Origin: a virus | Strand: one strand, 5' to 3' | IMG/VR virus record: IMGVR_UViG_3300009034_000194 | Coordinates: 1 to 25,447 of that record | Length of the DNA: 25,447 nt | Shown: positions 1,691 through 25,447 of the stretch, piece by piece | How positions within the stretch are numbered: the first letter of the stretch is position 1 | How the letters are laid out: every line of letters starts with the position of its first letter | The notes under the pieces: model-generated | What the model was told of the DNA's origin: nothing | The model's database searches: none | What the model saw: only the letters and a program-made list of their open reading frames with translations | Translations under genes and position numbers: made by a program

Positions 1691-1723
1691 CTTCCTATCC
1701 TTTCTGCCTGGGGGCGGTTAAGA

Positions 1724-2038: not shown

Positions 2039-2052
2039 AATCGCACCTCATC

Positions 2053-2144: not shown

Positions 2145-2192
2145 TAAAACCGCTGGCCGGATTCGGACCGGCCATTGGCCAAGCCAGGGCGG

Positions 2193-2489: not shown

Positions 2490-2580
2490 AATAATCCCTT
2501 TCTAAAAAGTTAAGCGTTTCAGTTAAGTCCCTGCTTGCATTGAAGCTCACGCGCCGACGCAGGCGGCAGGGATGAGAGAA

Positions 2581-2778: not shown

Positions 2779-2835
2779 TTTTTGCCCTTTCTAATTAAGT
2801 GAATTTAAGCGTTTAATTTATGTCCGCGAGGGCGG

Positions 2836-5212: not shown

Positions 5213-5399
5213 AGAATACGTACCTTGTGAAAATTGCATAGTTCGGAGAAAACTGAATCCAGATGTATGTCATTGTGAAGAGACAGATAAAACAGGTTAT
5301 CATATTATGGACTATAAAATAAAAAGTGATGCAACTATGATTGGTGAAGTAGGTGAAGGTATGGCAATGTGTGGTAGATTATGGCAAACAGACCGCTAA
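5205..5399 (+). CDS. Cysteine-rich small protein, 64 aa
   Basis: Starts MAKEYVPCENCIVRRKLNPD. The spacing C-x2-C then CHC about 11 residues on suggests a small zinc site, with one further Cys near the C-terminus. It overlaps both the previous gene (8 bases) and the small terminase gene (19 bases), so expression is probably coupled. Function unknown. Confidence 0.6.
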   Translation: MAKEYVPCENCIVRRKLNPDVCHCEETDKTGYHIMDYKIKSDATMIGEVGEGMAMCGRLWQTDR

Positions 5400-5824
5400 C
5401 ACCTAAGCAAGCAGCTTTCATAAGAGAGTATGTAATTGATAATAATGCCACACAAGCAGCATTAAGAGCTGGTTATGCCGCAAGCTGCGCTCGTTGGGCC
5501 GGTTGTACTAACATAACAAAACCAAACATAAAAGCTGAATTGGCCAAGAGAAGGGCCGAAATTGAGGCCAAGACAGAGTATTCAATAGAAAAATGGAGAC
5601 AGCAGCAGTTATCACACATGAAGCAGGCAGCCGGAGACAATCAGTGGGGTGCTGTTGCTGCCTTTGCCCGTCTCTTAGGCATGAACATAGGTGCATTTGA
5701 GGCAGATAACAGCCAGAAGGGTGAGAAGACGCTGATTGCCCTGCGTAACGAGGACAAGGCCATAGCTGCTATCATAGCCACGGGCAAGGCGTTAGACGAA
5801 GCCCCCGACGCACTGGCTGAGTAG
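5381..5824 (+). CDS. terS: Terminase small subunit
   Basis: 147 aa. The N-terminus LTPKQAAFIREYVIDNNATQ followed by AALRAGYA matches the helix-turn-helix start of the Terminase_2 small-subunit family (PF03592), whose hallmark is LTPKQ...EY..D.NATQAA.RAGYS. The family recognises the packaging site on phage DNA and assembles a ring that regulates the large subunit. The helix-turn-helix covers about residues 5-55; the middle helix (60-100) would oligomerise and the C-terminal part contact the large subunit. The insertion CARWAGCTN replaces the usual short A..xG segment. The ATG overlaps the previous gene by 19 bases. The large subunit is 1.3 kb downstream, separated by small genes. Confidence 0.9.
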   Translation: MANRPLTPKQAAFIREYVIDNNATQAALRAGYAASCARWAGCTNITKPNIKAELAKRRAEIEAKTEYSIEKWRQQQLSHMKQAAGDNQWGAVAAFARLLGMNIGAFEADNSQKGEKTLIALRNEDKAIAAIIATGKALDEAPDALAE

Positions 5825-7082: not shown

Positions 7083-8744
7083 GTGGACAAATTTACTAAG
7101 CCTACTATCTGGATACAGCGCAACCTCAAGATTATCGACAAATTAGGTAATCTGATAGGTTTGGACCCTAACATCGGCCAGTTAATGCTGGCCAAGATGA
7201 TAATAAAGCAGCGTCGGCTGGGCCTGCCGGTGCGGATAGTCTTATTGAAGCCTCGTCAGGTGGGCTGGAGCACATGGAGCGAGGCCGAGGCCTTTTGTTT
7301 TATCAATAACAATCCCAACCGCACGGCCCTCGTGGTAAGTGCCGACCTTGACTCTACTAATCTGGTCTTTAACATGGCCAAATTGTATCAGGACCAGATG
7401 CCTGCGGATATACGGCTGGCCACCAAGGCGTCTTCGAGGAAGGAGATTATATATGCCAAGCCTCATCGGTCGCGTTTTTTGACTCAGACGGCGGGCAAGG
7501 ACGTTTTGGGACGGGGCGGTACGGTCCACTTTTTTCACGCTTCGGAAGTTGCGTTCTGGCCGAAGGCCAAGGCCGGACTGGCGGCTGTTTTGCAGATGGT
7601 CCCTTCTTCTGGAGATACAACGGTAATTTTAGAGAGTACGGCCAACGGTGTCGGCGGCGCCTTTTACGACATATTTCAGCAGGCGGTTGACCGGATAAGG
7701 ACTACCGGCTCTTTAGAGGGCTATATTCCGGTCTTTTTCCCGTGGTATAAGTTCCCCGAATACCAGTCGTCGGCCCCTAAAGGTTTTTGCCTCCAGAAAG
7801 ACGAGTCGGAGCTAAAGAGCGAGTTCGGCCTGAGTAACGACCAGATATTCTGGCGGCGGCTGAAGGTCCAGGAACTCGGCGGCGACGAGAGTTTGTTCCG
7901 CCAGGAGTACCCGGCCACCCATATCGAAGCGTTTCAGACCTCCGGCAACCCGGTATTTACGCCTTCTATGATCCACTTTCAGAAGGCCTTCATGGCCGAA
8001 GGTCGGACGGTTGTCTTTAACGACGATGAGATAGAGAACGTCGAGCGCACTTTTAACTGCTGGAAGATAATAAATCCCGCCGAAGAGGGCCATCAATATT
8101 GCATGGGTATAGACACTATGGAGGGCCGTCTTTCGGACGTTCAGGACCCCAAGAGCCATCTGGACTGTGACGGAGCGGTGGTCTTCGACAGGAGCACCGG
8201 CCTGGTGGTCGCCTTCTGGCACGGTCGGGGCGACCAGGGCGTACTGGGCAGGCAATGCCTGTGGTGTGCCCGGCACTATAACGAGGCGTGGGTAGCGCCG
8301 GAGATACCGGCTTCTATGGTGCTATTGAAAATCTTCAAGGACGACGGCTACCCGAACATTTACAATCGCCAGGTCCACGACCAGCGGATAACCACCGAGG
8401 AATCGGAGAACCTGGGCTGGCGTACCGACCTTATTACGAGGGCCTGGTTGGTAAGCGACTTTTTAGTGGCGTGCCGGGAGGGTTCGGTAAAGGCCGTCTT
8501 CCGCGAGATAGTCGAGGAGATGGAGACTTTTATTCGTGACAAGACCGGCAAGGCCGTCCATCAACCGGGCAAGCACGACGATTTGCTCTTCGGCCTGATG
8601 ATAGCCCTTCAGGTCCATTTGAGATGTCCCCTGACCGCAATGCCGTATAAGGACGATTATACGGGCGAGGACGAGGACATGGCCAGGGCCGAGAGTTTAT
8701 CGAGGAGCGGCTGCGTAGACGACTGTATTTTAGAAGGGGATTGA
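7083..8744 (+). CDS. terL: Terminase large subunit (packaging ATPase and nuclease)
   Basis: 553 aa. The motor that pumps DNA into proheads and cuts it. ATPase part: Walker A-like KPRQVGWST (residues 56-64), a Walker B region ending HASE (152-155) whose Glu is the likely catalytic carboxylate, and the coupling motif ILESTANG (182-189). The nuclease part has an RNase H-like pattern: GIDTMEG (Asp344), GAVVFDR (364-370) and the late KHDDLLFG with Asp499/Asp500 as metal ligands. PWYKFPEY (220-227) is also typical. The frame has GTG at 7083 as its first start after a stop at 7071, but the only good ribosome site (GAAGGAAGAG, 7058-7067) is better spaced for an out-of-frame ATG at 7070, so the start is uncertain. 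The gene is clearly richer in GC than the small genes around it. Confidence 0.93.
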   Translation: MDKFTKPTIWIQRNLKIIDKLGNLIGLDPNIGQLMLAKMIIKQRRLGLPVRIVLLKPRQVGWSTWSEAEAFCFINNNPNRTALVVSADLDSTNLVFNMAKLYQDQMPADIRLATKASSRKEIIYAKPHRSRFLTQTAGKDVLGRGGTVHFFHASEVAFWPKAKAGLAAVLQMVPSSGDTTVILESTANGVGGAFYDIFQQAVDRIRTTGSLEGYIPVFFPWYKFPEYQSSAPKGFCLQKDESELKSEFGLSNDQIFWRRLKVQELGGDESLFRQEYPATHIEAFQTSGNPVFTPSMIHFQKAFMAEGRTVVFNDDEIENVERTFNCWKIINPAEEGHQYCMGIDTMEGRLSDVQDPKSHLDCDGAVVFDRSTGLVVAFWHGRGDQGVLGRQCLWCARHYNEAWVAPEIPASMVLLKIFKDDGYPNIYNRQVHDQRITTEESENLGWRTDLITRAWLVSDFLVACREGSVKAVFREIVEEMETFIRDKTGKAVHQPGKHDDLLFGLMIALQVHLRCPLTAMPYKDDYTGEDEDMARAESLSRSGCVDDCILEGD

Positions 8745-9690: not shown

Positions 9691-10116
9691 ATGCCAACAG
9701 GCGATATTTCAGGCTGTTTCGAGATTTCGAGTGGCTACGGCAATTTTTACAAATTCGATACGGGAAAAACAGGCCCGTGGGGTGTTTATTTCGATAATAG
9801 CGGCGATGGTGTCGAGAGGATTTGGGCCAAAGACCCAACTTATGACGCTACGAAGTCGGTATTAAAACTCTATTACGTCCATTTGAGTTGTACTACAGCG
9901 GTTTCGGTCGGCTTGTTTGACGGTTCCGACGGAGAGGGTATTGTGAGATTGAGGACGAGCGATGTCACTTATGCCAATACCGGAAATTCAGAGGTATGGG
10001 ACTTTCGGGACGACCCTTTGGTTTGTATGACGGCCGAAAATACAAAGTCATTAAGTGTATGTGCCGGTGACGGCTGGGTTTCGGGCTTTGTTAAAGTCGG
10101 ATGGGGCACGCCGTAA
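9691..10116 (+). CDS. Probable small virion (decoration-type) protein, 141 aa
   Basis: Starts MPTGDISGCFEISSGYGNFY after GGGGG at 9680-9684. It is almost free of long helices and rich in Gly, Asp, Thr, Tyr and aromatic residues, as expected for a beta-sandwich. It ends with GDGWVSGFVKVGWG, reminiscent of the FGW endings of the three small proteins at 16.9-17.8 kb, although the rest does not obviously align. Its place between terminase and portal suggests a structural role, for example head decoration. That role is inferred. Confidence 0.55.
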   Translation: MPTGDISGCFEISSGYGNFYKFDTGKTGPWGVYFDNSGDGVERIWAKDPTYDATKSVLKLYYVHLSCTTAVSVGLFDGSDGEGIVRLRTSDVTYANTGNSEVWDFRDDPLVCMTAENTKSLSVCAGDGWVSGFVKVGWGTP

Positions 10117-12239
10117 TGACAACTGAGGAGCAGAGCAAGAAAAAGGCAGAGCAGAACACCTTTCTCGACCGGCTCGAAGAAGAGGGCATGAAGATTACCA
10201 AGTCGTGGAACTCGGTCTGGTCTGAGAGTATAAGGTACTTCTTCGGCGACCAGTTGGGCCACAGAAAGGTCAAGAAAGGCTGGAGCGAGGTAGTAGTAAA
10301 CTACATTTTGCCCGCCGCCATTCAGGAGATAGCCAAGCTCTCCAAGAACCATGCCCAGATACTCGCGCATCCGTGGGAGGCTTCGGACGCCGAATTTGCA
10401 GAGGCGTGGCGGTCACTGCTCCAGTGGCTGTGGGAAAAGGGTGTGAACGGGCACGGTATGAGGCTGGAGCAGATTGCCTCCACCCTCGATAAGAAACTTT
10501 ACGGCTATAGCGTCTCCAAGGTCATGTGGGAGAACAGGGACGCCTGGGACGAGAAGGCCAAGACGTGGAAGGGCGATGTGAAGTTTAGGTTGTGGAAGCC
10601 GGAGCGGTTCTGGGCGCTGGGCCAGGAGAAGATAGACGACGGCCCCTGCGGGACGGTAAGGTACGTAGAGGAGCAGTGGGCGGTAAAGCGATGGCCGAAA
10701 TTCAAGGCTAAGATAGAAGAGGCATCCCAGACCTACGAGGAAGTTCTTTCCGGCGGCGGTCAGACCATAGACGGCCAGACCCTCTCTTCGGGCACGTATC
10801 CGAGCGCGGGCGTCGGCGCCGCCGACCGCGGCATTGCCAACGCATTTAAGACCCTGCTCAACCTGATAGTCACCCGAAAGAAGCACACACCCAAAGACAG
10901 TAAGATAAGATATATCAAGCTCGCCGAGTTCTACTATAAAGATGAGGAGGAGAAAAAAGTTAAAGAGTACATGACGGCGGAGGAACTACTGGCTTCCGGT
11001 ATGATTTCCGTTGAAGGTGGTATGTATTACGACAACTCCGGCCCTATAAATGAATTACCTCAAGTCCTCAAAAGAGAATATGACGAGCCTTTATACCCCT
11101 ATGGCCGGTTCGTTATCAGGCTGGGCAAGGACATTATAGTAAATAAGAACCAGCGATACGGCTATAAGAAGTGGCCTTTCGTTGTCTCTCCCCACTATCT
11201 TTTACCTCACATGTGGCAGGGTTGGGACGCCGTCCAGATGTATAAGAGCGCTCAGGATATGATAAACATATCCGTGACCCATCTGGTAAATAATATGAAG
11301 ATGTACGGCGACCCTAAAATTGCCGTCGAGCGCGGCGCTATAGACTCGCCACCCGGCAAGAGAGGAGCCCATTACAAGATAGGCAAGGGCGCCGGCAGTA
11401 TTATTCGGCTGGTAAGAGGCGGATTGTCAAGGTTCCAGATTCTCGACCCGCCCGCACCATCCGCTGCGGCCATACAGCTATACGGTTTATTCACTCAGGA
11501 ATTCAAGAATTTGGCCGGCCTTCAGGATATTGCCCGCGGCAAGCAGGGCGAGGGCCGCATAACGGCCACCGAATCTCACTTTTTGATGATATCCGCAAAC
11601 GACCGGCTGGCCCTTCAGAGCGCTTACGAAGACGTCTGGGTGACCGAAGTTGCCCGTTTAATGGCCTGGATATGCCAGAGGAACTACGAGGTCGGCAGGA
11701 TAGTAAGGGTAATCGGCGAGGATAATATAGTCGGCGCCCAAGAGATTACCGAGCAGGTAAAGAACGTAGATTTCGATATCGATATTATTCCGGGCGCCCA
11801 GCTTCCTTTCGACCAGGAAAAGAAAGAGGCCAAGTACCTACAGGCGTACCAGTTAATGGCCGACCCCGCCCCTAACCCCATGCTGCCTGAAGTATTGAGG
11901 ACAATGGAGATTACCAACTGGCGCAAGATTCTCCAGCAGCATGCGGTATGGCAGAAGTTCATGCAGTTCCTGGAGCTGTTTCAGGCCGTTACCGAGAAGA
12001 GGATAACAGTTGAGCAGGGCATACAGAAATTGATTCAGGCGGCAATGGCCCATTTTGCAGAGCAGCAGGACTCCATTGAGGGCATTGAGGCCAGGAACAA
12101 AGAGAAGGAGCAGCTCGACCAGGAGCGTGACAGTCTTATCGCCGAGGGCGAGTCCGAAGGCCGCAAGAAGGAACGCGCTATCCAGTCTGAAAGGGACAAG
12201 GTTAGAAACGAAAAGAAAGCGAAGAAGGACAAGAAATAG
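10116..12239 (+). CDS. Portal protein
   Basis: About 707 aa from the ATG that overlaps the previous stop (TAATG). An in-frame ATG at 10101 would add five residues. The portal is the twelve-subunit ring at one capsid vertex through which DNA passes. Supporting features: the position after terL and before scaffold and capsid, the long alpha/beta body with motifs such as LYGYSVSKVMWE (about residues 130-141) and NFDIDIIPGAQLP-like wording late on (VDFDIDIIPGAQLPFDQEKK), and a highly charged helical tail (last 60 residues, ending KKAKKDKK). Length is near that of the P22-type portals (about 725 aa), and I favour that class, without a search to prove it. Confidence 0.85.
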   Translation: MTTEEQSKKKAEQNTFLDRLEEEGMKITKSWNSVWSESIRYFFGDQLGHRKVKKGWSEVVVNYILPAAIQEIAKLSKNHAQILAHPWEASDAEFAEAWRSLLQWLWEKGVNGHGMRLEQIASTLDKKLYGYSVSKVMWENRDAWDEKAKTWKGDVKFRLWKPERFWALGQEKIDDGPCGTVRYVEEQWAVKRWPKFKAKIEEASQTYEEVLSGGGQTIDGQTLSSGTYPSAGVGAADRGIANAFKTLLNLIVTRKKHTPKDSKIRYIKLAEFYYKDEEEKKVKEYMTAEELLASGMISVEGGMYYDNSGPINELPQVLKREYDEPLYPYGRFVIRLGKDIIVNKNQRYGYKKWPFVVSPHYLLPHMWQGWDAVQMYKSAQDMINISVTHLVNNMKMYGDPKIAVERGAIDSPPGKRGAHYKIGKGAGSIIRLVRGGLSRFQILDPPAPSAAAIQLYGLFTQEFKNLAGLQDIARGKQGEGRITATESHFLMISANDRLALQSAYEDVWVTEVARLMAWICQRNYEVGRIVRVIGEDNIVGAQEITEQVKNVDFDIDIIPGAQLPFDQEKKEAKYLQAYQLMADPAPNPMLPEVLRTMEITNWRKILQQHAVWQKFMQFLELFQAVTEKRITVEQGIQKLIQAAMAHFAEQQDSIEGIEARNKEKEQLDQERDSLIAEGESEGRKKERAIQSERDKVRNEKKAKKDKK

Positions 12240-12933: not shown

Positions 12934-13665
12934 ATGTCAGAAAAAGAAGAGGAACAGAAAAACCAAGAAGACTTCAAAGCTCAGTGGGACAAGCAGAAGC
13001 AGGAAACGCAGCAGGCCGAGGCCAACTACCAGAAAGCCGTTGAAGAAAAGCAGGTTATATCTGCCGAAAACGCTACATTATCGGTACAACTTGAAAATAT
13101 TCAGCGGTATATGGAAGAGTTGGAAGCGAAGGTAAAGGCCCAGGAAGATGCGAAAACCGACCCTGACTTCGACCCTGACAAAGTTGACCCGAATGTAATC
13201 AAGGAATTGCAACGGGCACGAACCGCTGAAAAAGAGTTGATGGCAAAAGTCAAAGAACTCGAAGGCAAGGCATCTACATACGAGCAGACCGAAAAGCAGC
13301 GGGCGGCGAAGGCCGCGGAAGACAGGGCAGTTAATAAGATTTGCACTTCCCTCGACGAAGAGTTCGGGCCGCAGTTTAGAAATGACGCTATAGCACTTGC
13401 CAAAAAACTTGTCAAGGACGGCAAGGAGCAGCCTATAGAAGATGGCATTGACGGTACGATTCTAATGAGGAAATGTTATAAGCAGCTATCTGAAAAGGCG
13501 AAGTCCAAAGGTGAAGATGATGTTCCGACTGACACGGGTGCCGGCGGGTTGACCCCTGACAAAACCGTAGTAAAAGGTGATACGCAGGATGTGCTCGCCG
13601 ACATGAGACAAAACAAGGGCTGGCTCCAGGAGCCGCTTGGCCCCGGAGAGCCGGACATCTTCTAA
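12934..13665 (+). CDS. Probable capsid scaffolding protein
   Basis: 243 aa. GGAG at 12921-12924 precedes the ATG. The first 120 residues are Glu/Lys/Gln-rich with heptads and almost surely coiled coil. A smaller helical domain follows (about 130-190), then a flexible Gly/Asp/Pro tail that ends PLGPGEPDIF. This composition and the place just before the major capsid gene are characteristic of scaffolding proteins, which line the procapsid during assembly and leave before packaging. Scaffolds vary too much in sequence for a family name by eye. Confidence 0.75.
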   Translation: MSEKEEEQKNQEDFKAQWDKQKQETQQAEANYQKAVEEKQVISAENATLSVQLENIQRYMEELEAKVKAQEDAKTDPDFDPDKVDPNVIKELQRARTAEKELMAKVKELEGKASTYEQTEKQRAAKAAEDRAVNKICTSLDEEFGPQFRNDAIALAKKLVKDGKEQPIEDGIDGTILMRKCYKQLSEKAKSKGEDDVPTDTGAGGLTPDKTVVKGDTQDVLADMRQNKGWLQEPLGPGEPDIF

Positions 13666-13687: not shown

Positions 13688-14719
13688 ATGTCAACAGCAG
13701 ATTTAACCAAGGCCACCCGAACGCTTTTTATTCGCACCGTGGATAATATGGTCTTTTACAGGACCCCGGTAGTCGAAGAATTAAAGCGAAGGAATCAGAT
13801 AACCGATTCGGGCGGCACAGCGTATGAAAAACTGGTGGACACTGCGGAAATTGATTCTTTAATGCAGGAGTACACCGCTAACGACGCCCTTACCGATGAG
13901 AAGTCAACGACACTTCAAAAGCCGAAGTTCACAAGGAAATATGCTCAATTGCCCTTGCGTTACGATATTGACGAGTACACTCAGAATATCCACGCGGGTA
14001 AAGAAGAGCAGCTTTTGAACCTGGCGACCCATCTCAACGAAAAGGGCCAGAGGGCGGCCAAGCTATGGCTGTCCAAATCAATCTTTAATAAGGGAAGCAC
14101 GACCCCGGCAGCCGACGGCGGCACGGCTTTCCAATCACTCGTTTCGGCGCTTAACCATGACACCGCCTACGGCACTATTACAAGGACTTACGGTACTACG
14201 GGCGACTATTTTCAGGGTGCGGACCCGACGGCGTTAAACGCCGATATTGCCGCTTCCGGCAGTGCCCAGGACACGGCGACGAACCTGACCATTTCCAACT
14301 TGAGGAAGTGGATAAACGAGTCGAATGTTAGTCAAAATATGGAGAGCGAGGACGACCTGTATATCTGCATGTGTCCCAAGCTCTATAACAAGCTGATAGC
14401 GGAAATGGAAGCCAAGGTCCAGTACAAACCTGCAATGTACCAGCGGCAGGGGATACGGAAATGCGAGCTTGACGGCCATCAGGTTGTTAGCGTGCCTTAC
14501 CTTCAGCAGTCTTCGACGATGAAGACGTGGCTGTTCATTCTCAATATGAAGTATTTCGAGTTGAGACTGCACACGCTTCGCAACTTCTCGCTGACGCCGT
14601 TCGAATGGCAGGGCAAGAACTCCAACGGCTACGATTTCTGGCTGGCAAGGATTATGATTGCCGGGAACTTCATGTGCTGGAAGCCGAACAGTTCAATGTG
14701 GTTAAGTTCGGTAACTTAG
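13688..14719 (+). CDS. Major capsid protein
   Basis: 343 aa. It starts MSTADLTKATRTLFIRTVDN after a GGGGGGG ribosome site (13677-13683). Size, its order (terminase, portal, scaffold, then this gene), the early segment TPVVEELKRRNQITDSGGTA and the later LPLRYDIDEYTQNI with an ensuing helix containing EKGQRAAKLWL are typical of HK97-fold capsid proteins of the group lacking a fused prohead protease. The C-terminal part (from about residue 225) has the alternating strands expected of the P-domain and A-domain. The codon use is GC-rich like that of the terminase and portal genes. Assignment rests on context plus pattern. Confidence 0.8.
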   Translation: MSTADLTKATRTLFIRTVDNMVFYRTPVVEELKRRNQITDSGGTAYEKLVDTAEIDSLMQEYTANDALTDEKSTTLQKPKFTRKYAQLPLRYDIDEYTQNIHAGKEEQLLNLATHLNEKGQRAAKLWLSKSIFNKGSTTPAADGGTAFQSLVSALNHDTAYGTITRTYGTTGDYFQGADPTALNADIAASGSAQDTATNLTISNLRKWINESNVSQNMESEDDLYICMCPKLYNKLIAEMEAKVQYKPAMYQRQGIRKCELDGHQVVSVPYLQQSSTMKTWLFILNMKYFELRLHTLRNFSLTPFEWQGKNSNGYDFWLARIMIAGNFMCWKPNSSMWLSSVT

Positions 14720-15915: not shown

Positions 15916-16096
15916 CCCGTATCTGGACGTTACAAAGTTCGATAACCTTACTACGGGGGCCGGCACTGACGTTTTGACTGTTAGCGTGGCGATAGGCAAG
16001 TTAATTGGGACTGTCGATGCGTCGGGAAATATTACCTTTGGTCTTTACGATGGTTCACGACATCCCTGTGGTTTTTCAATGGCAAGTGAGGCTTAG
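15446..16096 (+). CDS. Structural paralogue 2
   Basis: 216 aa, second of the tandem trio, after AGAAAGGGGG. It keeps DNWPGCPNP, PGMVTMCYMRY and EYGWFWVGGVCPYLDVT but is the most divergent in the first half, where an Asp/Ala-rich stretch (SDDGDAGDLSDHE and AAAADATE) replaces the usual central part. Its last 40 residues (SVAIGKLIGTVDASGNITFG) resemble a small beta domain absent from paralogue 1. The DNA coding for the WFWVGGV block is identical to paralogue 1 over 32 bases. Confidence 0.7.
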   Translation: MAVTNIREIVLYDNWPGCPNPTLSRPNDGWDGTITACLSAPAYEPGTKIMFQSDSTYTPGMVTMCYMRYIEGSDTASDDGDAGDLSDHEAVCCHVNSSGSDGLDAAAADATERQWWNVSHDTTNTDATLAGGVGAVAVACGEMSTGEYGWFWVGGVCPYLDVTKFDNLTTGAGTDVLTVSVAIGKLIGTVDASGNITFGLYDGSRHPCGFSMASEA

Positions 16097-16110: not shown

Positions 16111-16842
16111 ATGGCTCATAATGCAATACCACTGTCCTCCGTTCATCTTGTCGATAATTGGCCGGGGCCGGTGAATCCCAATAAGGGAAAGCCCATCGGC
16201 GGATGGGACGGTACTCACGACAGTTTCAAAACTGCCGTTGACTCTACCGTTCCCGCCCAGCCGATAGGCGAGAAACGAATGGCGTACACTGACAATAGTC
16301 ATTGTCCGGGCTGGTACACCATGATGTACTTGCAGTACCATGCCTTTGAGAACGCCTGTATTAGTAAGGATATGTCCGATTCCCTACAGTTATGCACGCC
16401 CTATGACGGTTCTGACTGTGAATCTTACGACAATTCTTTTGCGCAGTATTACACCGTTACCAACGAAATCACTAAGGGCAATTCCGACGCTACAAGGGGG
16501 ATGCGAATAGCGTTTCCCTGTAGCACTATGGACTCTGACGGGACTTCTGTTGATGTTTCCGCCAATAATGCTTACGGCGACCAGTGGGGCTGGTTCTGGG
16601 TAGAAGGCGTGTGTCCCTGTAAGGATGCAACGATTCTTGACGGGACCGCCGGCAACGGCCTTGGTGTAGAGTTTGAATGTGCAAGTACCTATACGGGTGG
16701 TCCAATGACGCTCGATGATTTTTCATCGGACGGGACTACGGGCTATATCTTTTTCAAAGAGGCTGTTTCGGACGCAACGATAGCGTTTGTGGGCGTAAGA
16801 AACTCACCGATTGTTGCATACGGAGATATTAGCGGAAGCTAA
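16111..16842 (+). CDS. Structural paralogue 3
   Basis: 243 aa, third of the trio, after AGAAAGGAGG. It has DNWPGPVNPNKGKPIGGWDG, GEKRMAYTDNSHCPGWYTMM and WGWFWVEGVCPCKDAT. The middle is expanded relative to paralogue 1. It is closer to paralogue 1 than to paralogue 2 in the first 70 residues. Its C-terminus (TGYIFFKEAVSDATIAFVGV) matches the extra end domain of paralogue 2. The set looks like repeated duplication with exchange of end domains. Confidence 0.7.
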   Translation: MAHNAIPLSSVHLVDNWPGPVNPNKGKPIGGWDGTHDSFKTAVDSTVPAQPIGEKRMAYTDNSHCPGWYTMMYLQYHAFENACISKDMSDSLQLCTPYDGSDCESYDNSFAQYYTVTNEITKGNSDATRGMRIAFPCSTMDSDGTSVDVSANNAYGDQWGWFWVEGVCPCKDATILDGTAGNGLGVEFECASTYTGGPMTLDDFSSDGTTGYIFFKEAVSDATIAFVGVRNSPIVAYGDISGS

Positions 16843-17926: not shown

Positions 17927-18661
17927 ATGGCATTGACAGGCGCAGGCATAACAGACGAGGTGCAGGCCCTTTGCGGCAGGCCCACTAATCAGGTACTCCT
18001 GACCAACGCCCGCGTTACGCGCTGGCTCAACGAGGCGGTTAAAAAGATAGCAGAGGAATGTCCCGACCTCGAAGAGTTGCAGTTCGATAATACCGATTCG
18101 TTTGATACCACCGAAACGAACGTATATGCGGTAAACGAAATAACGGTCGGCGACGCTACGGGCGAAGATACCGTTTGTCATATCTTCGATGTTTTTTATC
18201 TGGACGGTAACGAATCGAGACAATTGACGTACATTCACCCGGACGAGTTCGACGCCGCATGGCCGGACCCCACCCATTCGGACATACCAAAAACCAGACC
18301 CTCCCATTGGACAATGCAGGAAGACCTTTCCGGCGGCTATATTAAGATGATGCCTTTTTGCCTTACCGAATATTGTGATAAAGACTTGAGAATTACCGGT
18401 TCAATGTATCCGGGCGAATGGACTACCGAAGATTCTACGGAAGGCCGATTGAAGGATTGTGACGATGCTATCATCGCTTATAGTGTCTGGAAGGGATTTA
18501 ACGCCATTGGTAACGACCTGAAGGCCGCTTTATGGAAAAAGACATGGAGCAATCCCGACCCGCTGACCGGCGAAGACTACGGCGAGCTGGAGAAGATAAA
18601 GTTCCGGTCGGGCAGGGAACACGGCTGGGACGGCAATATATTCTACGATAGTTATGAGTAA
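17927..18661 (+). CDS. Probable head-tail connector (adaptor) protein
   Basis: 244 aa. The N-terminal part ITDEVQALCGRPTNQVLLTN followed by ARVTRWLNEAVKKIAE has the pattern of head-completion/adaptor proteins that dock under the portal: a helical start, then D/N-x-R-x-x-RWLNEA. A beta-rich middle with IHPDEFDAAWPDP (about residues 102-114) and HWTMQEDLSGGYIKMMPF (about 126-143) is also typical, as is the late helical part with YSVWKGFNAIGNDLKAALW. AAGGTG is the ribosome site. Its stop overlaps the ATG of the sugar synthase by eight bases, which ties the sugar cassette to the virion genes. Confidence 0.7.
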   Translation: MALTGAGITDEVQALCGRPTNQVLLTNARVTRWLNEAVKKIAEECPDLEELQFDNTDSFDTTETNVYAVNEITVGDATGEDTVCHIFDVFYLDGNESRQLTYIHPDEFDAAWPDPTHSDIPKTRPSHWTMQEDLSGGYIKMMPFCLTEYCDKDLRITGSMYPGEWTTEDSTEGRLKDCDDAIIAYSVWKGFNAIGNDLKAALWKKTWSNPDPLTGEDYGELEKIKFRSGREHGWDGNIFYDSYE

Positions 18662-19514
18662 GGAAGTAAAGATAGTAGCTGAGATGGGGGCCTCTCATCA
18701 TCAGGACGGCGAGACGGCGAAGCAGATAATAGACGCCGCCAAATGGGCCGGTGCCGATGCCGTTAAAGTCCAGATGTTTACGCCCGACCAGATGACCTTA
18801 AACTCCAAAGAGGACAGATTTATTATAAAGGAAGGTCAATGGAAGGGTTTTAAGCTCTGGGACTTGTACGAGGCGGCTGCAATGCCCGTGGAGTGGGTTC
18901 CGGGCCTGAAGAATTACACCGAGTCTTTGGGAATGGAGTTTTTCACTTCGGTCTATCATCCCGATGCCGTGGACTGGGCCGAGGAAATTGGCATACCAAA
19001 GTACAAGATAGCCTCTTTTGAGATAACTTATTTAGAGTTAATTGAGAAGGTAGCGAAGACAAAAAAGCCCGTATATATTTCTACGGGCACGGCGACTTTT
19101 GACGAGATTAAAGCCGCTGTAAATGCGGTCAAAAAGCACAATAAAAAACTTACACTGTTATATTGTGTAAGCGAATATCCGCCTCGGATAGAGGACATGA
19201 ACCTTCGCACGATAGATGCGATGGGCCACGCCTTCAAGGCCAGGATGGGTCTGTCCGACCATACCGAGGGCATGGTGGCCGCAGTAGCATCCGTTTCTCT
19301 GGGAGTTACCGTTATTGAAAAGCATATCAGGGTGGACGATATCGGCCTGGACAATTTTGCCATGATGCCTGAGCCGTTCAGGATAATGGTCAAAACGGTC
19401 AGGGCGGCGGAGCAGTCTTTGGGCAGGGTCACTTACGGCGGAAAAAAGAAATTCACAAGAGAAAAGATAGAAGGAAGATGGATACGAGTCGTTTCGACAA
19501 CAAGACAATCCTGA
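18654..19514 (+). CDS. neuB: NeuB/PseI-family nonulosonic acid synthase lacking the C-terminal SAF domain
   Basis: 286 aa. The family condenses phosphoenolpyruvate with a six-carbon amino sugar to form a nine-carbon nonulosonic acid (sialic, legionaminic or pseudaminic acid). The TIM-barrel motifs are intact: AEMGASHH (residues 9-16), AGADAVKVQMF (32-42), FKLWDLYEAAAMPVEW (66-81), YKIASFEIT (117-125), PVYISTGTA (139-147), GLSDHTEGM (199-207) and IEKHIRVDD (221-229). His203 and His224 match the metal ligands of NeuB. Usual members are 335-355 aa and end in an antifreeze-like SAF domain that reaches into the partner's active site; this one stops where that domain should begin. SFEITYLELIE favours the PseI subtype. 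No ribosome site is seen; translation is probably coupled to the connector gene. It overlaps pseB by 37 bases. Confidence 0.88.
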   Translation: MSKEVKIVAEMGASHHQDGETAKQIIDAAKWAGADAVKVQMFTPDQMTLNSKEDRFIIKEGQWKGFKLWDLYEAAAMPVEWVPGLKNYTESLGMEFFTSVYHPDAVDWAEEIGIPKYKIASFEITYLELIEKVAKTKKPVYISTGTATFDEIKAAVNAVKKHNKKLTLLYCVSEYPPRIEDMNLRTIDAMGHAFKARMGLSDHTEGMVAAVASVSLGVTVIEKHIRVDDIGLDNFAMMPEPFRIMVKTVRAAEQSLGRVTYGGKKKFTREKIEGRWIRVVSTTRQS

Positions 19515-20392
19515 TAACGGGCGGGACCGGCAGTTTGGGTCATGTCCTGGTCAGGAAGCTATTTGACAAGTTCACAGCGAAAAAGGTGATAGTATATTCA
19601 CGGGACGAGTTCAAACAGTCTGTTATGGCTGAAGAACTGCACGAGGACAGGCTGCGGTTCTTTTTAGGCGACGTAAGGGACCGCAGCCGCCTGTCTCGCG
19701 CGTTAAGGGGTGTGGATTACGTTATTCACGCCGCCGCATTGAAGCAGGTTCCTGCCCTTGAATATAATCCGACTGAAGCGATAAAGACCAATGTAATCGG
19801 CACTATGAACGTGGCGGAGGCATGTGTTGGGGGGGATGTCTCTGCCGCGGTTCTTATATCCACCGATAAGGCCGTCAATCCCGTTAATCTTTACGGCGCC
19901 TCCAAACTTGTCGCCGAGAAGATATTTACCGCCGCCAATGCAATCGGCACAACGATGTTTTCGTCTGTAAGATACGGTAATGTTATAGGGTCGAGAGGGT
20001 CGGTAATGCCCCTTTACCAGAGACTTGCCGAAGAAGGCAAGGCCCTGCCCGTTACCCACATTGATATGACCCGTTTCTGGATTACCCTGGAAGAGGCGGC
20101 TGATTTGGTGTTTTTCGCACTCCAGTATTCCGACCGCAGCGGCAAAGTGATTGTGCCCCAGATACCCTCAATGAAGATAGTCGATATTGCCGGAACTATC
20201 GGGCCGGACTCTGAAATAGTAGTTATCGGTAAACGAGCGGGCGAAAAGCTGCATGAGACCCTGATAGCGGAGGATGAAGTTAAGGCGGTTTTATTGAAGA
20301 AGGACGGCCTTGTAGATTACAGGCCGAAGGCGTTTAACAGCAGAGACAATGATTTATGGCTGACGCCGGAAGAGTTAAGGAAGAAATTATGA
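19478..20392 (+). CDS. pseB: PseB-type UDP-GlcNAc 4,6-dehydratase (inverting)
   Basis: 304 aa, short-chain dehydrogenase fold. It would turn UDP-GlcNAc into the 4-keto-6-deoxy sugar that starts the pseudaminic acid pathway. Seen: NAD-binding GGTGSLG (15-21), YSRDEFKQ (40-47), GDVRDRSRL (64-72), IHAAALKQVPALEYNP (83-98), ISTDKAVNPVNLYGASK (127-143) with catalytic Asp130, Lys131, Tyr139 and Lys143, RYGNVIGSRGSVMPLY, MTRFWIT and GEKLHETL. These match the PseB/FlaA1 group closely. It is about 25 residues shorter than usual at the C-terminus. GAAGGAAG precedes the ATG, which lies inside the synthase gene. The next gene overlaps by four bases. Confidence 0.9.
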   Translation: MDTSRFDNKTILITGGTGSLGHVLVRKLFDKFTAKKVIVYSRDEFKQSVMAEELHEDRLRFFLGDVRDRSRLSRALRGVDYVIHAAALKQVPALEYNPTEAIKTNVIGTMNVAEACVGGDVSAAVLISTDKAVNPVNLYGASKLVAEKIFTAANAIGTTMFSSVRYGNVIGSRGSVMPLYQRLAEEGKALPVTHIDMTRFWITLEEAADLVFFALQYSDRSGKVIVPQIPSMKIVDIAGTIGPDSEIVVIGKRAGEKLHETLIAEDEVKAVLLKKDGLVDYRPKAFNSRDNDLWLTPEELRKKL

Positions 20393-20631
20393 ATACCTGT
20401 AGAGAATGTGAATACGTCGAGCATTTAACCTGGGAGGAAGAGCGCAGCAGAGGCAGGCTTGGCAGTCACATTTCAAAAGAAAGCCGCTGGCTCTGCCTGA
20501 GATTTCCGCCCACGTCAAGCGGCGGCTTTAAATCAAAAGGTCGTGATGAACTTATAAAATATTCGGGATACAATATAGTATTCGAGTTCAACATAGCTTG
20601 TGGTGAGTTTGAGAAAAGGAAGAAATTATGA
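20389..20631 (+). CDS. Small cysteine-containing protein, 80 aa
   Basis: The ATG overlaps the pseB stop (ATGA) behind AAGGAAGAAA. It starts MNTCRECEYVEHLTWEEERS; further cysteines lie in WLCLRFPP and ACGEFEKR. CxxC...C...C suggests a zinc-binding fold. The pattern CxxCxY...W.C..F.P...CGEF resembles small phage and bacterial proteins of unknown function. It overlaps the reductase gene by four bases, so it is translated within the sugar unit, but a role in sugar synthesis is not shown. Confidence 0.6.
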   Translation: MNTCRECEYVEHLTWEEERSRGRLGSHISKESRWLCLRFPPTSSGGFKSKGRDELIKYSGYNIVFEFNIACGEFEKRKKL

Positions 20632-21299
20632 TATTTGACAGATTAGCGATAGGTACGGCCAACTGGGGCAAGGAGTACAACGGGGCAAAGGTTTCCGAAG
20701 ACGACCAGAAGCGGATACTCGACTACTGCCAGTGTTCGGGCATTGACATGATAGACACCGCCACCGCCTACGAGTGGGACTGGACTAAGGTCAGCAGTTA
20801 TTTCAATGTGGTTGTTAAGATAAATGAAAATGATAGTGTTAAGCGGGTAAAAGAAATAAGAGATGCCGAACCGTATTGTCTGATGGCACATTATAAAAAT
20901 CTGTTAGATAAAATCCCTTGGTGTCACTTAGGGGGCGTTTCTCTTTATAACCCATCAGAATATGATGGCATCACGGAAAGCATGAGAATTTTGCAAGTTC
21001 CTTATAGCATGTATGATAGACGGTTTGAGAGACATTTTAAGACTCGGCATAATGAGGATATATATAATCGAAAACTTCACGTCCGCTCCGTATTCCTGCG
21101 GGGGAAAATTATAAAGGCAGGCGTAGAGCCGTGGAAGTGTATAGCCTTCTGCCTGATGAACCCTTACGTTGACCGGGTAATTATCGGTGCGGACTCCTAC
21201 GAGCAATTCAAGGATAACCTGCGACCTTTTCACAGAATGGATGTAATGAAAAAAGAAGATGAAAACCTGTTAGACCCAAGGAGATGGAAGAATGAATGA
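20628..21299 (+). CDS. Aldo/keto reductase-like protein (short)
   Basis: 223 aa against 270-330 for the usual family. The start LAIGTANWGKEYNG, then IDMIDTATAYE, VVVKIN and LMAHYKN places Asp43, Tyr48, Lys64 and His88 where the aldo/keto reductase catalytic tetrad lies. The end IIGADSYEQFKDNL resembles the cofactor-binding loop. AKR-like proteins accompany NeuB and class III aminotransferases in some nonulosonic acid clusters, where a redox or isomerising step is presumed. The substrate is unknown. The middle of the gene (about 20800-21080) is distinctly richer in AT than its ends. It overlaps both neighbours. Confidence 0.75.
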   Translation: MIFDRLAIGTANWGKEYNGAKVSEDDQKRILDYCQCSGIDMIDTATAYEWDWTKVSSYFNVVVKINENDSVKRVKEIRDAEPYCLMAHYKNLLDKIPWCHLGGVSLYNPSEYDGITESMRILQVPYSMYDRRFERHFKTRHNEDIYNRKLHVRSVFLRGKIIKAGVEPWKCIAFCLMNPYVDRVIIGADSYEQFKDNLRPFHRMDVMKKEDENLLDPRRWKNE

Positions 21300-21495
21300 G
21301 AAACGAAATCCGATACAGGAAGCGATGACAAAGATTGCTCATCAAGCTAATTATTATAGTATCCCTGTTTTGGATAAATTATCTGATTATGACAAAGGAA
21401 ATCACAAAGGTCGCAAAGAAGGTTTGTTGATTGCTTTTTACTTAATGAATGATGCTATAACCCGAATAATTAAAAATTGGAAGGAAGAAAAATGA
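21292..21495 (+). CDS. Small helical protein, 67 aa
   Basis: Starts MNEKRNPIQEAMTKIAHQAN, after GGAGATGGAAG in the reductase gene. It is predicted mainly helical with no cysteines, and contains DYDKGNHKGRKEGLLIAFYL. Overlaps of eight bases at the front and four at the back embed it in the sugar operon. It is AT-rich like the early small genes, so it may be a passenger. Function unknown. Confidence 0.6.
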   Translation: MNEKRNPIQEAMTKIAHQANYYSIPVLDKLSDYDKGNHKGRKEGLLIAFYLMNDAITRIIKNWKEEK

Positions 21496-22766
21496 ACTGG
21501 AACAGGACCAAACAACTGATACCGGACGGCGTTCAGACGCTTTCCAAGATGCCGGAAAGGCATGTAAACGGCGTTTATCCCAAGTATATTGATGGCGGGA
21601 TGGGCGCTTATATTAAATGCGGCGATAAGAGATATATAGATTTTCCAATGGGGCTGGGGGCAGTGATATTGGGACATGCCAACCCTGACGTTAATCTTGC
21701 CGTTAAGAAGCGGCTGGACATTGGCACGATATTCGGCCTGCCCAACTTCATGGAAACGGAGCTTGCCGAAAGGATAGTCGATATTATCCCTTCTGCCGAG
21801 CAGTGTCGGTTCCTGAAAACGGGCAGTGAAGCCACCAGTGCCGCCGTTAAGATAGCACGGACATACACCAACAGAAAGAAAATAGTCGCCTGCGGCTATC
21901 ACGGCTGGCACGACTGGTATTCATCTACCTTTAAGCGGGCGGGAACGGTGGACAGGCACGTTATACAGGTGCCATACAACGACCTTGAAGCATTTAAGAA
22001 AAAGGTTACGGACAAGACCGCCGCCGTCATCATGGAGCCGTATGTTTTCGAGGAGCCGAAGAAGGATTTTCTTAAGGGCGTAAGAAGATTATGCAATGAT
22101 AAGGGCGTTGTCTTAATCTTCGATGAGTGCGTAACAGGGTTTAGGACCAGGAAGATGTCGGCCCAGGCTTTCTTCAACGTCAGGCCCGAGCTTACCTGTC
22201 TCGGCAAGGCGATGGGCAACGGATATCCGATTTCCTGTGTGTGCGGAAAGAAGGAGTTGATGGATGTTCTCACCAAAGACTGTTTTGTTTCTTCTACTTT
22301 TGGCGGCGATTTGGTGGGTATTGCAGCGGCGATAAAGACAATTGAAATTGTAAGCCACAAGGGTATTCACCATCTGGAGATAATGGGCCACAAACTAAAG
22401 GAGGCATTTAACCGTTACGCGCAGAATGACGGCCTTTTCGATTGTAAGTGTGTGGGCTACCCGCAGAGGACGAAGTTCGAATTTCCCACAGATGCCCACA
22501 GGTCTCTATTCTGGCAGGAATGTCTGGGCCAGGGAGTGTTCTTCGGCTACGCCCAGTTTGTGAGTTATGCACACAATATGCCGGAGATGGACAAAACCGT
22601 AGCTGCTATAAGATATGCAATGAGGATATTAAGAAAGAACAAGGACAACCCGCCGGCGGCGCTCAAGGGCGATGTGGCCACGCCGGCACTTAGAGAGGAA
22701 GTAAAGAATGAAACTGGAAGTACTAACACTTCAACAGTGCCAGCAGGTGAGACTGTGGCGAAATAA
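21492..22766 (+). CDS. Class III aminotransferase, glutamate-1-semialdehyde aminomutase-like
   Basis: 424 aa from the ATG at 21492 (ribosome site GGAAGGAAGAAA). Pyridoxal-phosphate enzyme of fold type I: LKTGSEATSAAVKIAR (108-123), ACGYHGWHDWY (133-143), VIMEPYVFEEP (179-189), LIFDECVTGFR (208-218) and CLGKAMGNGYPIS (236-248), with Lys239 the cofactor lysine and Asp211 its ring partner. True haem-pathway enzymes share these motifs. In this cassette the likely substrate is a keto-sugar, taking the place normally held by PseC or LegC, which belong to the unrelated DegT group. The last 40 residues (rich in Ala, Thr, Val and Glu) form an added disordered tail whose DNA also encodes the start of the next gene in another frame. 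Confidence 0.85.
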   Translation: MNWNRTKQLIPDGVQTLSKMPERHVNGVYPKYIDGGMGAYIKCGDKRYIDFPMGLGAVILGHANPDVNLAVKKRLDIGTIFGLPNFMETELAERIVDIIPSAEQCRFLKTGSEATSAAVKIARTYTNRKKIVACGYHGWHDWYSSTFKRAGTVDRHVIQVPYNDLEAFKKKVTDKTAAVIMEPYVFEEPKKDFLKGVRRLCNDKGVVLIFDECVTGFRTRKMSAQAFFNVRPELTCLGKAMGNGYPISCVCGKKELMDVLTKDCFVSSTFGGDLVGIAAAIKTIEIVSHKGIHHLEIMGHKLKEAFNRYAQNDGLFDCKCVGYPQRTKFEFPTDAHRSLFWQECLGQGVFFGYAQFVSYAHNMPEMDKTVAAIRYAMRILRKNKDNPPAALKGDVATPALREEVKNETGSTNTSTVPAGETVAK

Positions 22767-23232
22767 ATCAATGTCGGCGTTGCGGACGCCGTACCAACTG
22801 ACGGAGGAAATGCAGGAGAAGTTTTACCATGATGTGATATGTAATCCTAATTCGCATCACAGGTATTGGGGGGTATGGTTAGAGCCTTACGAGGAAGATA
22901 CCTGTTTTATAGGCTTGGGCGGCATTACCAATATCCAGTGGGAGAACCGTATCGGAGAGATAAGCCTGATACTTAATCCCGAAGAAAGAGGCAAGGGCTA
23001 TGGCGAACAGGTCGTAGACCTGCTCTTGGATAAAGCCTTTAATTACCTAAACTTACAGACGGTATGCGGGGAAGTATATTGGTCAAATCCTGAAGGAGTG
23101 GCTTTTTGGCAAAAGATAGTCGGGAAGTTCAGACAAACTCACCTGCTTGAATTGCCTAATAGAAAATATTGGAAGGGTCAGTTTTATCCTTCGTGGTACT
23201 TTTCAATAGACAGGGGAGATTATGTTAAGTAA
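22708..23232 (+). CDS. GNAT acetyltransferase (PseH-like)
   Basis: 174 aa. RimJ/RimL-type GNAT fold. VRLWRNK (14-20) is the usual start; ISLILNPEERGKGYGEQVVD (85-104) contains the acetyl-CoA pyrophosphate loop R94-GKGYG-99; SNPEGVAFWQKIVGKF (126-141) is the C-terminal helix seen in PseH-like enzymes. In the pseudaminic pathway PseH acetylates the 4-amino group made by the aminotransferase, and the gene order here (aminotransferase, then GNAT) fits. Its ATG lies 59 bases inside the aminotransferase gene after AGAGAGGAAG. It overlaps the next gene by 11 bases. Confidence 0.82.
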   Translation: MKLEVLTLQQCQQVRLWRNKSMSALRTPYQLTEEMQEKFYHDVICNPNSHHRYWGVWLEPYEEDTCFIGLGGITNIQWENRIGEISLILNPEERGKGYGEQVVDLLLDKAFNYLNLQTVCGEVYWSNPEGVAFWQKIVGKFRQTHLLELPNRKYWKGQFYPSWYFSIDRGDYVK

Positions 23233-24046
23233 AGATTTCCCATCTCCGCTCTATTCCGAGCTTGGCATCCAGTATCAGCAGGCTTACGACGGGCCTTACG
23301 AGGACTTGTCTATTTCAGTTAATGGAACGACGGTTATAGCCGGAAGCAAGGACGGTAAAATTACAGGCTTCGGCAGGCCCGTTTTTGCGACAGGAAAGAA
23401 ATTGAGGCAGGCAGCCGAAAGGCTGTATGGGATTTCCGATGATATATGGTATCGGGCCTATGAGATAGACGATTTTGCCAAGTTTCTTTTGGAAAAGGGA
23501 TATGAAGCAACTCCGTATTTTACCCAGGTAATCGACCTGTTTATTAGAGGTTCGTCCGGCCAGAGAATCCGCCCTAAGACAGAGCAGGAATTACACGTCG
23601 ATGTGCGCAAGAGCTATAAGAGCCTGATAAGCAAAAATGAAAATGTCAAATTAGATGCAGGTTTGTTATTTTCGAGAAATTTGCATATTGAATGTGCCGG
23701 GCGGGAAACCCGTTCTGTTAAAACATGGGAAATACAAAATGAGATGATAAAACAGGAAGAGGCTTTTAGTTTTTCTGATAATACAGGTTTGTTGCCGATA
23801 GCTTTTGGTTTCTTCATCTACAACAATCACACATGCTATTACGGTGTAGGGGCTTCATTGGAAGGTGTAAACAGTCACGCCTTGATATGGAAGGCGATAC
23901 TCCACGCAAAAGAGTTGGGCTGTAAGTATTTTGAGATGGGTGAACAGGTGTTTTCCGGGGACGAGAAATTGGTGAATATATCGAAGTTTAAGCGTGGTTT
24001 CGGCGGCACTTGCCAAATGAGGCTTGATTTAAGGAAGAAAGAATGA
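23222..24046 (+). CDS. FemAB-like acyltransferase (double-GNAT type)
   Basis: 274 aa. The middle VRKSYKSLISK (about 127-137), HIECAGRETRSVKTWEIQNE (about 154-173) and the closing set YYGVGASLEGVNSHALIWKA (about 206-225), HAKELGCKYFEMGEQ and ISKFKRGFGGT follow the pattern of FemAB-like GNAT proteins, in which the second GNAT unit carries the active site. Such proteins transfer aminoacyl or acyl groups onto peptidoglycan or sugar amino groups. Here it could add an acyl or amino-acid substituent to the nonulosonic acid. AAT-rich stretches at 23630-23820 contrast with the rest. GGGGAG is the ribosome site. Confidence 0.72.
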   Translation: MLSKDFPSPLYSELGIQYQQAYDGPYEDLSISVNGTTVIAGSKDGKITGFGRPVFATGKKLRQAAERLYGISDDIWYRAYEIDDFAKFLLEKGYEATPYFTQVIDLFIRGSSGQRIRPKTEQELHVDVRKSYKSLISKNENVKLDAGLLFSRNLHIECAGRETRSVKTWEIQNEMIKQEEAFSFSDNTGLLPIAFGFFIYNNHTCYYGVGASLEGVNSHALIWKAILHAKELGCKYFEMGEQVFSGDEKLVNISKFKRGFGGTCQMRLDLRKKE

Positions 24047-24222
24047 AACTGATAAAACTTAGTTGTTCGCCAAGTTGTAATAGAAAAGTTGAAATACCCG
24101 AAAATTCACCTATTCGGCACCAATTATTTCCGTTTTGGCCTTGGGTACAACAAGGATTTAATTGTGTTGATTGTGGTTATGCTGTGTATGTAGAGGTAAT
24201 AGATGACAAGGAGAAGGAATGA
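24043..24222 (+). CDS. Small zinc-ribbon-like protein, 59 aa
   Basis: The ATG overlaps the previous stop (ATGA) behind AAGGAAGAAAG. It starts MKLIKLSCSPSCNRKVEIPE and has CVDCGYAVYV about 30 residues later: two CxnC knuckles, a zinc ribbon. The middle contains PFWPWVQQGF. It overlaps the amidotransferase gene by four bases. It is AT-rich. Function unknown; this is the third small protein threaded through the cassette. Confidence 0.6.
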   Translation: MKLIKLSCSPSCNRKVEIPENSPIRHQLFPFWPWVQQGFNCVDCGYAVYVEVIDDKEKE

Positions 24223-25274
24223 GATGTCGCAAGTGTATAATGCCCGATACCAAGCCCGGCATATCTTTTATAGACGGCGTTTGTAACGCCTGCCAGAACG
24301 CAGAGATAAACAATAAGAAGAATTTTGAAGATTATCAGTATGTGCTAAGAACGAAGGTTGTTCATGGTATTCATGCGCAGGCAGGGTTTTCTTCTTGTGG
24401 TTATGGCTGTGTTGTTCCCGTATCCGGCGGTAAGGATTCGACCTTTCTGGCGATGAAGGCGCGGGAGTTGGGGCTAAATCCGTTGTGTGTAAATGTAGCG
24501 CCGTGCGTGCCAACGGCAAGAGGCGAAAGGAACCTTGGAAACCTTTCCAAGTTAGGGTTTGATATATTTCGGTTCTTTTCGAACCAGAGGATAATGCCGA
24601 CTTTGGTAAAGAGAAGTTTCGTAGAGGACGGCGACCCGTGTACTTCTCACGAGTTCATGCTTTACACAGTGCCAGTGAGAATGGCAATGAAATTTATGAT
24701 ACCCCTGATATTTTGGGCCGAAGACCCGCAATTTGAATACGGTAATTCCGGCGATGTAAAAGGAGCAGATGAACAGCGAAATATTGCCGGCTTATGGGGT
24801 CGTCCAGCCTCTCATTGGGTATGTGAAGGTGTTGAAGAAGAAGACCTAAATATGTTCGAGCATCCCACTGCCGAACAGATTGGCAGGGCAGGTCTTGAGG
24901 CCATTTATATGAGCCGATACATCCGGTGGGATTCACAGAAGATAGCGAAGTTTGCTATAAAACACGGTATGGAAGTAAGGCCCTATAGTGAACTTGAAGG
25001 AACTGGCGGCTATTGGGACTTCGAGCAGTTGGATGATGAGACACCGATAATAGGCCATTACCTCAAATTTGTAAAGTTCGGATACGGCAGGGCCACAGAC
25101 CAGGCGTGCAGAGATATAAGGCTGGGATACCTTACAAGGCAGCAGGGCTTGGCTTGTGCGCTACAGTTTGATGGCCACATATCACCAATATATATAGACA
25201 ATTTCTGTAGGTACATTGATATAACCGTGAAAGAATTTAACGTAATTTGTGAAACATTCAGAGGGAAGAAATGA
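24219..25274 (+). CDS. pseA: N-acetyl sugar amidotransferase (PseA/WbpG-like)
   Basis: 351 aa. The N-terminal zinc motif MRCRKCIMPDTKPGISF with CNAC (Cys3, 6, 22, 25), the PP-loop VSGGKDST (68-75) that activates a substrate with ATP, and EDGDPCTSHEF (about 136-146) identify the N-acetyl sugar amidotransferase family. Characterised members convert an acetamido group of a sugar (pseudaminic acid in flagellar glycosylation, a uronic acid in O-antigen) into an acetamidino group. YGCVVPVSGGKDS and LWGRPASHWV are also typical. Some relatives need HisH/HisF-like ammonia-supplying partners; none is in the window. The next gene overlaps by four bases. Confidence 0.87.
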   Translation: MRCRKCIMPDTKPGISFIDGVCNACQNAEINNKKNFEDYQYVLRTKVVHGIHAQAGFSSCGYGCVVPVSGGKDSTFLAMKARELGLNPLCVNVAPCVPTARGERNLGNLSKLGFDIFRFFSNQRIMPTLVKRSFVEDGDPCTSHEFMLYTVPVRMAMKFMIPLIFWAEDPQFEYGNSGDVKGADEQRNIAGLWGRPASHWVCEGVEEEDLNMFEHPTAEQIGRAGLEAIYMSRYIRWDSQKIAKFAIKHGMEVRPYSELEGTGGYWDFEQLDDETPIIGHYLKFVKFGYGRATDQACRDIRLGYLTRQQGLACALQFDGHISPIYIDNFCRYIDITVKEFNVICETFRGKK

Positions 25275-25447
25275 AAAAGATACTGATTCTTACAGCTTCG
25301 CCGGAGCGCGACAAAATCATCGACGAGCTTATCGCCGAGGAACTTACCAAGAGGGGCTTTAAGGTAGCAGTCGCCCCGTGCCTGCGGCAGGGCCGGGCAG
25401 CCGTACTAAAGCACAAGCCCGATATCGTGATAATTGCTCCTGTCAGA
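25271..25447 (+). CDS. Partial: probable surface carbohydrate biosynthesis protein (N-terminus)
   Basis: 59 codons to the window edge, starting MKKILILTASPERDKIIDEL after AGGGAAGAAA. A first Rossmann half-fold of GT-B type is evident: strand ILILTA, helix IIDELIAEELTKRG, strand FKVAVAP, helix, then KPDIVIIAPV. In sugar clusters this pattern starts surface-carbohydrate proteins and some glycosyltransferases. It is not PseG, which begins with a GxxxGxGHxxR motif. It overlaps pseA by four bases, so the cassette continues rightward. Confidence 0.55.
   Translation, partial: MKKILILTASPERDKIIDELIAEELTKRGFKVAVAPCLRQGRAAVLKHKPDIVIIAPVR

Follow-up and report, generated by a model that had tools for sequence, protein, structure and literature searches.

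A putative nonulosonic acid cassette in the virion module of an uncultured podovirus-like phage lineage

The virion module of an uncultured tailed-phage lineage appears, judging from its sequence, to include a conserved cassette for the biosynthesis, activation and probable transfer of a nonulosonic acid (NulO), and we think it rather probable that the phage places this sugar on its own virion. Sialic-acid-like sugars are known surface decorations of bacteria and hosts. The DNA analysed is a linear IMG/VR record of about 25,447-25,448 bases, referred to here in its full length as the window (Table 1). The analysis consisted of sequence comparison and predicted structures. We favor virion glycosylation as the best reading because of the placement of the cassette among virion genes, its linkage with the portal, and the presence of a probable transferase.

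Upstream of the cassette, the window holds terminase, portal, and head genes. The scaffold-like protein, assigned by position and conservation, found no family match in the PHROGs search. The major head protein shares about 53-95% identity with that of its relatives, and no cultured relative of it was found in the phage collection. In the same collection, the terminase is related to many phages, all only distantly. The tail protein of the lineage weakly matches podovirus virion/packaged-DNA stabilisation proteins, and we describe the lineage as uncultured, podovirus-like tailed phages. A search of 285 genomes of the phylum of an Omnitrophota MAG with the major head protein gave no match, which says little on the host. 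On the minus strand, positions 1166-3033 form a block of small ORFs opposing the rest of the contig, with a GC content of ~0.41 as against ~0.50 in the virion module.

Table 1 Features of the window, with the evidence for each assignment
Feature	Coordinates	Strand	Evidence
Terminase small subunit	5381..5824	+	phrog_51 E 4e-18 (PHROGs)
Terminase large subunit	7083..8744	+	phrog_2 E 6e-12; kept across lineage
Portal protein	10101..12239	+	phrog_156 E 5e-21
Scaffold-like protein	12934..13665	+	position and lineage conservation
Major head protein	13688..14719	+	phrog_9953 E 7e-8
Three paralogous virion-module proteins	14733-15431, 15446-16096, 16111-16842	+	family alignment
SU10-type head-tail adaptor	17927..18661	+	PF24175 E 7e-7, exceeds cut-off (Pfam)
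NeuB/PseI-like nonulosonic acid synthase	18654..19514	+	PF03102 E 2.9e-71; TIGR03586
PseB-like UDP-GlcNAc 4,6-dehydratase	19478..20392	+	Polysacc_synt_2 E 7.5e-93; TIGR03589
Small Cys-containing ORF, 91 aa	20356..20631	+	ORF only
Short aldo/keto reductase (AKR)	20628..21299	+	PF00248 (Aldo_ket_red) E 2.8e-7
Small ORF, 67 aa	21292..21495	+	homologue in G010
Class III (GSA-like) PLP aminotransferase	21492..22766	+	PF00202 (Aminotran_3) E 4.2e-46
PseH-like GNAT N-acyltransferase	22708..23232	+	PF13302 E 1.7e-12; TIGR03585
FemAB-like acyl/aminoacyl transferase	23222..24046	+	TIGR04421 (FemAB_IMCC1989) E 1.1e-12, under cut-off
Small Cys-containing ORF, 59 aa	24043..24222	+	ORF only
WbuX-type N-acetyl sugar amidotransferase	24219..25274	+	TIGR03573 275 bits, over 203-bit cut-off
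GT-B-fold glycosyltransferase-like gene, start	25271..25447	+	relatives' protein, E 7e-25

As originally predicted, the adaptor is followed by genes of the NeuB, PseB, AKR, class III aminotransferase, GNAT, and FemAB families, all recovered at their positions by profile matches well above chance. The gene placed last and called PseA-like is likewise present, and is now specified as a WbuX-type amidotransferase. Beyond it, 59 codons of a further gene precede the contig end, with 63% identity over 59 aa, and up to 65%, to the protein encoded next after FemAB in relatives. The coding overlap claimed for every junction from adaptor to edge holds when the three small ORFs are included, with successive overlaps of 8, 37, 37, 4, 8, 4, 59, 11, 4, 4, and 4 bases. 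Small Cys-containing ORFs sit among the cassette genes in the window and in a relative (L002, 9610-10065), and several are mutually similar among relatives.

The synthase of the window stops at the end of the TIM barrel, and no SAF domain was recognised in it in Pfam and NCBIfam scans. Residues K38, Q40, K118, S121, E123, S201, H203, E222, K223, and H224 are invariant across the lineage; from what is known of NeuB structures, we take them to be of the type that lines the active site. The closest matches of the phage NeuB are pseudaminic acid synthases. The PseB-like protein carries the STDKA and YGASK motifs, the Asp-Tyr-Lys-His residues of the AKR are in place (read by eye), and K239, D211, and E212 of the aminotransferase, including the PLP-type Lys and Asp, are invariant in the lineage. 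None of the equivalog cut-offs of the pseudaminic acid models is reached: NeuB scores 300 bits against 340 for PseI (TIGR03586, E 1.9e-89), the PseB-like protein 379 against 408 for its best NCBIfam model (TIGR03589, E 1.2e-113), and the GNAT 35.8 against 93.1 for PseH (TIGR03585, E 7.6e-9). Among the cassette proteins scanned there is no PseC (DegT) match, a class III aminotransferase being present instead, and no PseG homologue was found by sequence in the cassette.

The genes missing at the right end are found in relatives. An IMG/VR search with the window NeuB yielded relatives at 53% identity, and further ones were gathered through similarity of their head, portal, adaptor, or tail proteins, after which the contigs were annotated. 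In L002, L003, and L005, the order runs from adaptor through small Cys ORF, NeuB, PseB, AKR, aminotransferase, GNAT, and FemAB to a 440-aa protein, a 190-aa CMP-sugar synthetase/cytidylyltransferase (PF02348, E 2e-17), a tail-fibre-like protein, and a 713-aa virion protein (phrog_3287, E 1e-25). With the cytidylyltransferase and the 440-aa, GT-B-fold glycosyltransferase-like protein, relatives thus encode the activation function and a probable transfer function that were to be looked for beyond the edge. Scored where the contig extends far enough, the order adaptor, cassette, tail is common to G001, G002/G003, G005, G010, G014, G015, G017, G018, L153/L154, and L184/L185. NeuB is present in every lineage contig reaching beyond the adaptor, the cytidylyltransferase wherever a contig covers the stretch preceding the tail-fibre-like gene, and the glycosyltransferase-like gene between FemAB and the CMP-synthetase/tail genes in all relatives reaching there. 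Several contigs are near-copies, so the lineage amounts to about a dozen distinct phages. Synteny in independent phages thereby bears out the placement of the cassette in a late/virion operon, downstream of portal, capsid, and connector.

The cassettes vary in their accessory genes. Among the lineage contigs annotated, the WbuX amidotransferase occurs in the window only; a PIG-L deacetylase is present in G014, G015, and G018, joined in the same cassette of the first two by a formyltransferase-like gene. A common sugar with differing N-acyl tailoring would fit this variation. An RNA ligase-like gene is inserted in the cassette of L154 (16543-17196) and an AAA_33 kinase-like gene in that of L153 (19804-20262). 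The NeuB of L184 and L185 comprises 328 aa, compared to about 272 elsewhere in the lineage, and the loss of the SAF domain may therefore date from within the lineage.

In a tree with 79 cellular sequences, computed without the later-found L184 and L185, the phage NeuBs form one clade (support 100/93). Pairwise distances follow those of the portal for NeuB (rho 0.83), PseB (0.82), and the aminotransferase (0.88; Mantel p 0.0005), comparable to the adaptor (0.83), while the correlations of AKR, GNAT, and FemAB with the portal fall short of significance. Because the NeuBs form a single clade and the three core enzymes diverge with the portal, we regard the cassette as a long-established, inherited component of the virion module. 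At the level of sequence, the pattern points to a core inherited vertically and long ago, with accessory enzymes swapped.

The 440-aa protein matches the BFO_1060 family (NF046086) with 74 bits in L002, against a cut-off of 200, and also a surface-carbohydrate glycosyltransferase family, below its cut-off. Its AlphaFold model adopts a GT-B fold (pTM 0.73) and resembles UDP-GlcNAc 2-epimerases/NeuC about as much as TarL/TagF (CDP-polyol) polymerases (Z about 20). The fold comparison does not tell transferase-type from epimerase/hydrolase-type matches, which are about equal in Z, and on this model the protein could instead be a hydrolase or epimerase. H228-P229, corresponding to the HP motif of bacterial sialyltransferases, is invariant in 10 phage proteins; the D/E-D/E-G motif is not among the invariant columns of that alignment, read by eye. 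In Bacteroidota, a PseB- or NeuB-like gene adjoins six of eight above-cut-off BFO_1060-family genes, which links the family to a NulO-type sugar. No cultured relative of the GT-B protein was found in the phage collection, and its homologues are weak and rare in cellular genomes bearing NeuB relatives. Two NulO transferases of Tannerella forsythia with experimental backing, GtfS and TFUB4_00887 (442-445 aa), carry an HP motif and are similar in size to the phage protein, which has one too (PMC6388019). They differ in that their target is a bacterial S-layer glycan, and the phage protein is only distantly like the BFO_1060 model. The BFO_1060-type family is likely of the same kind as these transferases, and the GT-B protein of the relatives is a probable NulO transferase.

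The gene set fits a pseudaminic-type NulO synthesis, though not the textbook pathway. We postulate that the phage would make a CMP-nonulosonic acid late in infection. PseB would yield a 4-keto-6-deoxy UDP-HexNAc, the class III aminotransferase would perform C4 amination in the place of PseC, and the GNAT would N-acylate the aminated sugar. The nucleotide would be removed by a host enzyme or another enzyme outside the recognised set, after which NeuB would condense the sugar with PEP and the cytidylyltransferase would form the CMP-sugar. The N-groups may be modified by FemAB together with the amidotransferase or the formyl/deacetylase genes, and transfer of the sugar to one or more virion proteins encoded on the same transcript would fall to the GT-B protein. 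C4 amination is proposed for the aminotransferase because it recurs with PseB, NeuB, and cytidylyltransferase across phage lineages. Candidate acceptors could be the three paralogues of Table 1, members of a fast-evolving family of about 220 aa that lies between head and adaptor genes in 1-4 copies per phage, with very low K+R and raised S+T. A predicted model of moderate confidence gave no PDB match and no known fold.

Compared to the bacterial pathway (PseB-C-H-G-I-F), the phages share a PseB-like dehydratase, a PseH-like GNAT, a PseI-like synthase and, in relatives, the cytidylyltransferase. They differ in the class III aminotransferase and short AKR, in lacking a recognised PseC or PseG, in a NeuB without SAF, and in the location of the genes inside a virion operon. 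Synteny strongly upholds the nonulosonic acid theme of the original prediction. Pseudaminic acid itself is no more than a possible product, as PseC and PseG were not recognised and PseB, PseI, and PseH stay below equivalog level. Cellular loci such as those of a Spirochaetaceae genome (L130) and, in part, of an Omnitrophota genome (L066) have a similar set of PseB, AKR, class III aminotransferase, cytidylyltransferase, FemAB, and NeuB. Unlike the phage cassette, they are cellular, encode full-length enzymes, and have no recognised virion genes nearby; L066 also has DegT genes and an RmlD/DegT fusion. The spirochaete locus encodes a DegT aminotransferase besides the AKR and class III aminotransferase that it has in common with the phages. 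This counts against the proposed C4 amination, and the AKR and class III aminotransferase may act at another step.

Related enzymes occur in other phages. A scan with the aminotransferase identified 76 viral contigs; in 43 records checked, terminase matches were found on 19 and NeuB on 35, and part of the rest may be of cellular origin. In lineage B (L186, L187, L190, L191, L192, L194, L196, L217), an adaptor-like and nozzle-like pair is immediately preceded by cytidylyltransferase, PseB, and aminotransferase genes, and several contigs have formyltransferase-like and PIG-L-like genes farther upstream. In lineage C (L215, L220, L225, L231, L236-L239, L241, L245, L246, and L250 among others), PseB, Gfo/Idh, NeuB, GNAT, FemAB, cytidylyltransferase, and aminotransferase lie upstream of terminase and portal-like genes, the Gfo/Idh-like gene replacing the AKR of the window lineage (A). 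For both of these further lineages, the adaptor-like, nozzle-like, and portal-like labels derive from position and sequence reading rather than family searches. The aminotransferases of A, B, and six ungrouped viral records form one virus-only clade (100/98), separate from those of lineage C and of cells. The chances seem even that several unrelated tailed-phage lineages have their own de novo NulO pathway, with a class III aminotransferase replacing PseC, often a SAF-less synthase, decorated particles, and lineage-specific N-tailoring (amidino versus formyl/deacetyl). A different podovirus-like contig with a P22-type portal (L049/L050, IMGVR_UViG_3300038608_000027) carries a canonical legionaminic-type set: NeuB with SAF, CBS+NTP transferase, two DegT aminotransferases, cytidylyltransferase, hexapeptide acetyltransferase, and a WbuX homologue. 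This set abuts a 537-aa ORF, possibly a terminase, without a Pfam match.

In the main rival reading, the sugar would instead decorate the surface of the host (LPS, capsule, pili, or flagella), blocking superinfection, masking receptors, or altering release, with late-gene co-transcription serving timing only. Cellular sugar loci hold similar enzyme sets, and in Acinetobacter, prophage enzymes alter host nonulosonic acids: epaA-epaB (PMC12053666) and O-acetyltransferases (PMC6586298). Like the cassette, these are phage-encoded and act on a nonulosonic acid, but they are one- or two-gene modifiers of a capsule sugar that the host itself makes, with no de novo synthesis. In the window lineage, by contrast, every member has a complete pathway anchored between its head and tail genes, and the core enzymes have been inherited along with the portal. 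Furthermore, the cassette showed no recognisable flippase, polymerase, or initiating transferase, and, as weak evidence, there was no integrase among the few non-structural ORFs scanned. We consider a host-surface destination unlikely.

A still less likely alternative holds that the NeuB-family and GT-B proteins have drifted and that the end product, perhaps a free metabolite, is an unusual acidic or amino sugar other than a NulO. This would agree with the unrecognised PseC and PseG, the presence of the class III aminotransferase and AKR, the NeuB without SAF domain, and the missing of every equivalog cut-off. It is countered by the retained active-site-type residues of NeuB, by its top matches to pseudaminic acid synthases, and by the occurrence of NeuB together with genes of the PseB and cytidylyltransferase families in the more complete phage loci of three lineages. 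A false join of phage DNA to a bacterial sugar locus during assembly, at ~18.66 kb, was a concern raised with the original prediction; no evidence for it turned up, and it is ruled out as vanishingly improbable, since relatives in several separate metagenomes share the junction and have tail genes on the far side of the cassette. The operon location and the nonulosonic acid theme thus stand, and the virion would be the acceptor in the reading we favor.

A virus-associated glycan of this type has a parallel in HRPV-1, an archaeal virus whose glycan reportedly contains legionaminic acid (work of Kandiba et al., 2012). It differs from the phages described here in being an archaeal pleomorphic virus, and we know of no NulO synthesis pathway encoded by it. 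In the open-access literature, we found no paper on de novo synthesis of a nonulosonic acid encoded by a phage virion operon. Modification of host nonulosonic acids by phages was already known; what appears to be new, as read from the genes, is a phage-borne de novo set among the virion genes. The cassette represents a compact set of unusual, shortened enzymes, with a SAF-less NeuB and a class III aminotransferase for PseC. If the proposed reading is true, phage particles can bear self-made acidic glycans, and their adsorption, stability, and recognition would be affected.
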